Translations under genes and position numbers: made by a program | Source of the DNA: Achromobacter insolitus | GTDB lineage: Bacteria > Pseudomonadota > Gammaproteobacteria > Burkholderiales > Burkholderiaceae_B | Direction of reading: 5' to 3' | DNA length: 64,000 nt | Assembly (NCBI RefSeq): GCF_002209555.1 | Contig: NZ_NJIF01000002.1 | Coordinates: 558,001 to 622,000, forward strand | Shown: positions 32,941 to 60,067 of the stretch, piece by piece | Numbering within the stretch: position 1 is the first letter of the stretch | How the letters are laid out: the number at the start of each line of letters is the position of its first letter | Notes under the pieces: generated by a model | What the model was told of the DNA's origin: nothing | Database searches by the model: none | What the model saw: the letters and a program-made list of their open reading frames with translations, nothing else

Positions 32941-33257
32941 GGTTCTTAACGCGCCCGCCGCTTCGGGGGCGTGCGGGGCGCGGGGCAACGATTGCGGTCC
33001 GGAGCCTACGCTCCGGACTCCCCCTGCGTCATCCTCGTCCGCCTTCGGCTCCCTACGGATTCCCTCGGGCTTATCGACGCCCCGCGCCCCGCACGCCCCC
33101 GAAGCGACAGGCTCGGCCGGAGTATCTTCCCGGCCGTTGGGGCGAGTCGTTTGCTTGGCGTTTTTGCACGCACCTGGGTGTGGTGGCGTGTCTTGCGGGG
33201 CCCGCCCCAGGTCGGCCGCGCGGGCGGCCTTTTGGGGCTTACGCGATGTCTTGCGTC
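32941..33257 (+). repeat. Structured interspersed element, copy A
   Basis: A 317-bp element beginning GGTTCTT and ending TTGCGTC. A perfect 28-bp clamp stem (32959-32986 with 33079-33106) encloses a 92-base core that contains the hairpin GTCCGGAGC-CTAC-GCTCCGGAC (32997-33018). A second domain (33204-33238) has outer GCCCC / GGGGC around GGCCGC / GCGGCC followed by TTTT. Copy B (33357-33679, inverted) has nearly the same core but different, still complementary, clamp arms. It lies 38 bp after the ferredoxin oxidoreductase gene in the same orientation, so it would be in its 3' untranslated region. Confidence 0.9.
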
Positions 33258-33356
33258 CAAGGATGACGCTGCGTGCTGGTGTGAGTCCGCTTCCTATTAT
33301 TCATACTGCGCCCCTGCTGGCAGCCGCAGCGAATCAAGCCATCGACGCCCTCGTAT

Positions 33357-33679
33357 GACGCAAGACACTGCGTATGCTCCCAGAGGCCGCCCGCGCGGCC
33401 GGCCGGGAGCGGGCCCCGCAAGATCTTTCGCCAAACCCCGCCGGTGGCGAGTACCCCGCGCAAGCCTTTCGTCCCAGCACCCGTGAAGATGGATGCAACG
33501 GAGCCCGGTGTAGCGGTGGCCTGCGGGACGCGGGGCGTCGATAAGCCCGAGGGAATCTGAAGGCAGCCGCCGCAGGCGGCAACGAAGATGACGAAGGGGG
33601 AGTCCGGAGCGTAGGCTCCGGACCGCAATCGTTGTCCCGCGTCCCGCAGGCCACCGCTACATCGGGCGTCTAAAGAACC
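33357..33679 (-). repeat. Structured interspersed element, copy B (inverted)
   Basis: Copy B of the element at 32941-33257, on the opposite strand. Its clamp is 33503-33534 with 33636-33667 (about 32 bp, one wobble). The core between is almost identical to copy A. The 3' domain (33376-33410) has outer GCTCCC / GGGAGC instead of GCCCC / GGGGC around the same GGCCGC hairpin. About 100 bp without a gene separates the two copies. Its 5' side in element sense faces the LysR start at 33757. Confidence 0.9.
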
Positions 33680-59833: not shown

Positions 59834-59858
59834 TTTTTTTGTCTTGATGGGCGTCTTG

Positions 59859-60067
59859 GGTTCTTGAGACGCCCGGCGCGTCGGTGGCCCGCGGTGCGTG
59901 GGCCACCGACGCGCCAGGCTCTGGCGGTTGAAGCTTGACGTCCGCTGGGGCGATTGGCGTTCTTCTGGTTCTTGCCGGCATTTGTGTTTGGGGGGGCGTG
60001 TCTTGCGGGGCCCGCCCCAGGCCGGCCGCGCGGGCGGCCTTTTGGGGCTTACGCGGTGGCTTGCGTC
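59859..60067 (+). repeat. Structured interspersed element, shortened copy C
   Basis: A 209-bp relative of the elements at 32941 and 33357. It keeps the 5' flank GGTTCTTGAGACGCCC, a clamp hairpin GGCGCGTCGGTGGCCC / GGGCCACCGACGCGCC (59875-59890 with 59900-59915) closed by a 9-base loop, and the 3' domain (60014-60048), which matches copy A in all but one base over about 58 bp. The 92-base core between clamp arms is missing. It follows the Bug gene in sense orientation. The rest of the gap to 60155 holds no gene. Confidence 0.88.

Follow-up and report, generated by a model that had tools for sequence, protein, structure and literature searches.

Between a gene for indolepyruvate ferredoxin oxidoreductase on the left and one for a LysR-type regulator on the right, the 64-kb stretch of Achromobacter DNA analysed here (the window) carries a composite element of 739 bp (32941..33679). 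Two inverted units, A and B, lie on either side of a central spacer (33258..33356) with their constrained strands pointing outward, and the outer end of unit A falls 38 bp past the last stop-codon base of the oxidoreductase gene. No gene was called between these two neighbours with a codon model, and no tRNA gene was found in the 64 kb. Unit A opens with an outer end of GGTTCTTAA type (32941..32952), delimited by comparison with the near-identical unit ends of a related genome, and continues into a minus-strand three-way junction that we call the C-module (32951..33117; 150.9 bits against our covariance model). On the minus, constrained strand, the clamp (P1) of this module pairs a 3' arm (32953..32986) with a 5' arm (33079..33112) around a P3 hairpin with loop GTAG (32997..33018) and a P2 arm (33022..33070) that contains GA-rich internal loops and is tipped by a C(GNA)G triloop. 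The unit also holds a T-hairpin (33204..33238) with a GCCCC/GGGGC stem. Unit B has the same parts in inverted order: a T-hairpin with a GCTCCC/GGGAGC stem (33376..33410), a plus-strand C-module (33498..33669; 189.1 bits) and an outer end of TAAAGAACC type (33668..33679). The plus-strand parts of this C-module are the 5' and 3' clamp arms (33503..33536 and 33634..33667), a P2 arm (33546..33598) whose triloop, GCA, occupies 33572-33574, and a P3 hairpin with loop GTAG (33602..33623). The composite element, its outer ends, spacer and T-hairpins carry no strand assignment. The two ends of a pair often differ in type; both ends in the window are of GATAAGCCC type.

An earlier, sequence-only reading had described copies A and B with a 22-nt hairpin, clamps and separate 3' hairpins (here the T-hairpins), and all of these were found where it had placed them. 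Its core hairpin is specific, in that the pattern with up to three mismatches occurs twice in the 64 kb and never in 100 shuffles. A and B, which it had taken as the copies, are real; the complete pair in its inverted arrangement, rather than the single copy, is the natural unit. The third copy that it had counted also exists, at about 59858..60067 (no strand assigned), with the core gone and the clamp hairpin and T-hairpin domain retained. A short loop closes the clamp hairpin of this copy, as though the P2/P3 core had fallen out.

The C-module spans about 170 nt and runs, on one strand, in the order clamp arm, CGAT, P2, P3, ATCG, clamp arm. It forms a three-way junction at which three helical parts meet: the clamp of 30 bp, the P2 arm, which is interrupted by GA-rich internal loops and capped by a C(GNA)G triloop, and a hairpin of 9 bp whose loop is c(GNAB)g. 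This fold was first proposed by RNAalifold with no structure supplied, and a few pairs were then adjusted by hand; on inspection of the alignment we read three tandem G.A motifs in P2. The cores of A and B differ at few positions, as the sequence-only reading had it. It had further counted six clamp positions at which a change in one arm is matched in the other, and the matched two-sided changes are indeed present, in a corrected number of eight. Comparison of the 39 clamp pairs between A and B gave 29 identical pairs, eight two-sided changes with pairing kept, two one-sided wobbles and no broken pair.

Quantitative analysis of covariation drew on 175 of 207 anchors, retained as distinct and with full flanks. 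In a first alignment (A1) of 50 of 69 diverse copies drawn from the 175, 96.0% of 2865 cells were paired, versus 78.7% in shuffles and 37-47% with slid partners. Two-sided change was seen in 35 pairs in these copies, versus 26.5 in shuffles, and reached 29 of the 30 clamp pairs. The 39 distinct copies from two other genera gave 98.1% pairing versus 65.8% in shuffles and 35-46% in slid controls, in an alignment that was fitted to the covariance model, which favours pairing figures. There, 48 pairs showed two-sided change (38.8 in shuffles), among them the four pairs of P2 helix 5 without exception and five of the nine in P3; a five-genome alignment with L280 in reversed orientation was left out of the counts. 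Both the core and the loops are conserved across genera, and on the constrained strand the c(GNAB)g loop of P3 is present in 168 of 175 copies and the C(GNA)G tip of P2 in 164. The 3' domain, too, varies together with its partner arm, as had been claimed from A and B, with 105 distinct stem sequences among the 159 scorable copies of the 175. Together, the shuffles and slid-partner controls rule out chance or a simple repeat. The covariance model, the searches of genome and family and the comparison of covariation with chance, all proposed in the sequence-only reading, came out in its favour by a wide margin; the original observation is real and stronger than first claimed.

Wobble pairs reveal which strand is under constraint. 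Among clamp mismatches flanked by pairs in the 175 copies, the outward strand carries 168 of G.T type versus 14 of A.C type, with a further 63 of G.A type. On two alignments the G.T to A.C ratio is 65:8 and 22:5. Since the copies are related, these counts are of non-independent events; the direction is nonetheless the same in other genera. Wobble mismatches that fall almost all on one strand identify the outward-pointing strand as the constrained one. This asymmetry bears out, for one defined strand, the suggestion of a selected single-stranded structure. In 170 of 175 copies the constrained strand also has the more stable predicted fold, whether RNA or DNA parameters are used. The T-hairpins lean the opposite way, with 27 A.C versus nine G.T on the strand used for the C-module count.

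The paired arrangement recurs throughout the family. More than one anchor was present at 48 loci, 42 of them distinct, and the distinct ones comprise 39 outward pairs, three direct repeats and no inward pair; pairs in the other two genera (g8 and g9) have the same outward order. What lies between the units differs at other loci, where it may be an additional hairpin, a copy of IS256 or a resident gene. The interiors of the long pairs inspected share no gene, which rejects a hidden coding gene or an autonomous version; they contain an IS256 copy or what we take to be an IS110 fragment, a lysE-like gene or parS-like sites. An IS256-family element occupies the centre of pairs in two genera (L117:2309-3559, L266:784-2076, L267 and L268), a possible target preference. 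In L272 (G097:C21:103200-106000), the interval between two C-modules contains several TGTTTCACGTGGAACA-type sites, which we assume to be parS-like and probably near the origin.

The window's own genome contains 21 end matches, of which four are cut by contig ends and some may be halves of one copy; a 22nd, weak match falls on the opposite strand of a match included among the 21. Contigs C8, C26 and C28 of this assembly start or stop inside core copies, so the repeat seems to break assembly. The family is present in 42 of the 43 genomes of the genus, this one included. Copy numbers from the genus and family surveys are lower bounds, with at most 20 and at most 10 candidates scored per genome, respectively. 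Among the matches listed for a strict pattern against public genomes (80 of 117 stretches), all are from Achromobacter, while the covariance model has matches in three of the 43 genera of the bacterial family, in 50 of its 268 genomes. In a 399-genome sample of the order, three genomes match, all from the same family. This is thus a dispersed family with divergent relatives in two other genera. A phage or plasmid origin was set aside, as phage and plasmid collections gave no match and one exact pattern was absent from viral contigs.

Evidence for mobility comes from a related genome, G097, in which whole units occupy three places with different flanks and abrupt ends, at 95.3% identity over 785 bp and 93.7% over 814 bp. 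No target duplication was visible by eye at the three copies, and additional copies in this genome, partly cut by contig ends, align at 83-94% identity. The sequence-only reading had set a selected structure against a simple repeat; the structure stands, and near-identical units at three places make it a dispersed repeat as well, so the two are not mutually exclusive. At one of the G097 places, none of the eight other genomes of that genus has a copy near the orthologous right-hand gene; the left flank has no match in the stretches compared, so the place is not a clean empty site. At the Achromobacter site between LysR and a gene that we take to be ilvD, L195 and L204 carry the full element, L190 and L200 carry part of it, and L182 and L196 show no trace; both genes are kept throughout, and these states do not separate gain from loss. 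At the L003 site, the element or its remains occur in seven of 30 genomes. The gene upstream of LysR is ilvD in many congeners but the one for indolepyruvate ferredoxin oxidoreductase in the window's genome and in two relatives (L177, L181 and L183 versus L182 and L192). The junction between the two arrangements falls within the element, and these repeats may therefore mark rearrangement breakpoints.

The enzyme that mobilises REPs does not account for these copies in the carriers tested. Y1_Tnp had no match in the window's genome (G000) or in 32 others of the genus's 43, nor in G097 or G104. No P3 and no T-hairpin motif was present at the 17 Y1 loci scanned, where the core pattern matched loosely once (L168) and the model gave six weak matches of at most 30 bits. 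With Y1 missing in three carrier genomes and the modules missing from Y1 loci elsewhere, we rejected REP/RAYT mobilisation; the searches turned up no mobilising gene, gene-carrying version or parent IS. Beside a Y1 gene in G015 (L174) stand seven motifs of a separate REP family, GTAGGATGGGT.

Among units flanked on each side by 400 bp or more and by called genes, which may include orthologous loci rather than independent insertions, our codon-model gene calls place 33 pairs between 21 convergent, 12 co-directional and no divergent neighbours. The corresponding figures for 86 singles are 43, 36 and seven. Selection in place is visible at the L008 site, where one clamp arm differs by a mean of 29% among 12 orthologous near copies and 352 of 360 cells nevertheless pair. 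In this model-fitted alignment, 20 of the 30 clamp pairs show two-sided change, and the mismatches comprise 18 G.T, one A.C and seven others. Clamps that diverge and stay paired indicate that the fold is maintained at resident sites as well as in copies that move, a pattern consistent with either REPIN-like persistence with some host use or action as RNA.

Several known repeat systems offer points of comparison. BIMEs, ERIC and other mosaic repeats or MITEs are non-coding and arrange palindromic modules in alternating orientation near gene ends. The present element resembles MITEs in being non-coding, multicopy and dispersed, with terminal inverted repeats, and differs from all of these in size, modules and its strand-specific three-way junction. 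Bordetella, which belongs to the same bacterial family as Achromobacter, has repeats of its own. Its Bor repeats are intergenic and 26-30 bp long in the accessible text of PMC1590033, and Bor-2 of Bordetella bronchiseptica appears, with a length of 167 bp, 17 members and a structure score of 1.00, in the accessible part of PMC2267715, where ERIC and PU-BIME stand among the repeat families. Like the present element, Bor-1 and Bor-2 are intergenic structured repeats, with neither paired architecture nor covariation reported for them in that part of the source (PMC2267715). By its description, Bor-2 may be a known relative.

According to the accessible sections of PMC3116915, REPs are hairpins of 20-40 bp linked with a RAYT (Y1) enzyme, and REPINs are REP doublets that form hairpins. 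The same sections supply the likeness to the present element, namely an inverted doublet as the unit of dispersal, an extragenic position, arm-compensating changes and single copies as remnants. The present element differs in that its ends are three-way junctions of ~170 nt, the unit measures ~0.75-1 kb, and Y1 genes were not found in three carriers. Tagged REPs (GTAG and CGTC) lie between convergent or co-directional genes, often less than 20 bp from stop codons, as the accessible text of PMC3733652 has it. The present element shares this placement at convergent and co-directional gene ends, and CGTC REPs likewise have no dedicated transposase (PMC3733652). CGTC REPs differ in having stems of 8-9 bp and loops of 4-5 nt. 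The TIRtrons of that source have long TIRs beside Y1 genes, some of them self-complementary and multicopy (PMC3733652). For tagged REPs and TIRtrons alike, its accessible part describes no three-way junction with a conserved core and a freely covarying 30-bp clamp (PMC3733652). We recognised no earlier description of the present element in the accessible parts of the open-licence literature.

Overall, this is a real, selected, strand-specific structured element and a variant of the dispersed palindromic mobile repeats. As to how it works, our leading reading, held tentatively and with somewhat less than even confidence, is that of a non-autonomous mobile repeat akin to REPINs, with ends that function as folded single strands, probably of ssDNA. 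The locus would be an oversized REPIN-style unit, with two inverted structured ends, each a T-hairpin plus a C-module, around a short centre. A protein would recognise the C-module as a folded single strand, most likely ssDNA at a fork or in a transfer intermediate, and the need for both ends would follow from there being one folded recognition site on each strand. New copies would be tolerated solely where promoters stay unsplit. Resident copies appear to be kept folded by selection and so would probably also serve the host in place, and the moving enzyme would not be the REPIN enzyme (Y1/RAYT) in the carriers tested. We prefer ssDNA to RNA because c(GNAB)g and C(GNA)G loops are very stable in DNA, a hint and not proof. 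In its most specific form, this proposal has a non-Y1 enzyme reading the ends as outward-facing ssDNA three-way junctions. It would recognise the fixed core and accept any pairing sequence in the 30-bp clamp, with the fold kept across three genera; taken with all these particulars, we regard it as rather doubtful.

A close rival, which we judge possible without thinking it probable, is a structured non-coding RNA, in which the C-module would work in a transcript, either read through from the far gene or started in the centre, and its fold would be selected as RNA. One-strand wobbles of G.U type with full covariation are typical of RNA families, and transcription along the constrained strand might also bias C-to-T changes. 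The spacer in the window contains one sigma-70-like match (33323-33296, minus strand; 9 of 12, 0.1 expected) that points outward through unit A along its constrained strand, but two other units scanned had no such match, and none of the three had an intrinsic terminator (GC hairpin plus T run). No known RNA family emerged from Rfam, which gave no match over the gathering threshold in the 64 kb; the best below it, MIR1437 (41 bits, E 2.6e-05, 168 bits required), we take for a hairpin look-alike. Singles between co-directional genes, some of whose mates may have been missed by the pattern, lie 21 sense versus 15 antisense, no clear preference, and only one of 175 P3 loops is of the GNRA kind. 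Very improbable, to our mind, is an origin with no function at all, whereby template switching (quasipalindrome correction) would symmetrise the palindromes and mutation alone would generate the covariation. Long hairpins do undergo arm-to-arm correction and the clamps are near perfect, yet a neutral process should be blind to strand, whereas the clamp wobbles fall overwhelmingly on one strand, a bias that has the same direction in other genera. Mutation with a strand bias, for example the kind that transcription brings, could add some asymmetry; the retention of core and loops across genera also speaks against such an origin.

The position of the copies suggests another explanation, a domesticated 3'-end device that would end or insulate transcription, or protect mRNA ends, between neighbouring genes. 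In the 33 pairs, outer ends lie a median of 27 bp (11-124, n=27) from the stop codon of the facing gene on the left and 26 bp (2-116, n=27) on the right. At the L008 site, an intrinsic terminator within 150 nt past the stop was counted in none of 17 genomes with an element end versus seven of 12 without, with one cut-off contig left aside and by a loosened criterion that still misses the L327 terminator visible by eye. Two of the seven terminator-bearing genomes nevertheless contain a core at a greater distance (188 nt in L330, 833 nt in L334), one of the 12 counted as lacking the element (L317) holds a remnant, and element and terminator stand together at the ilvD-LysR site. Moreover, the adjacent gene reads the unconstrained strand of the nearest C-module, the species compared are related, and a neutral insertion would likewise survive best behind genes. 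We consider a 3'-end device unlikely. The REPIN-like mobile reading has its own difficulties: the clamp divergence with pairing at the orthologous L008 site exceeds what transposition alone needs, the T-hairpin wobbles lean the opposite way to those of the C-modules, and no mobilising gene was found, while the G097 and ilvD-LysR sites do not settle gain versus loss. The promoter-like match in the window favours RNA.

What sustains palindromic intergenic repeats, whether mobility, mRNA ends or a chromosome function, is an old question. To our knowledge, few bacterial repeats combine covariation so dense with a clear choice of strand. The family supplies hundreds of natural variants of one fold, sites in full, partial and empty states, derivatives that have lost the core and, in the window's genome, a host that lacks the enzyme usual for REPs, which makes the question testable in one system.

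Contig 1 of G104 starts with a DnaA-like gene, and six of six listed places lie within 1.53 Mb of that start (the 5.53-Mb contig being taken as circular), a weak hint that copies in this genome are placed origin-proximally. A GTAGGATGGGT-type hairpin occurs at the L008 site in L319, L320 and L332, three genomes without the present element there. Finally, intergenic palindromic repeats of GGTGTCnGACnCC type were seen in both genera (L343, L345, L346 and L348; L030 and L184), including four of eight relatives at the L279 site.
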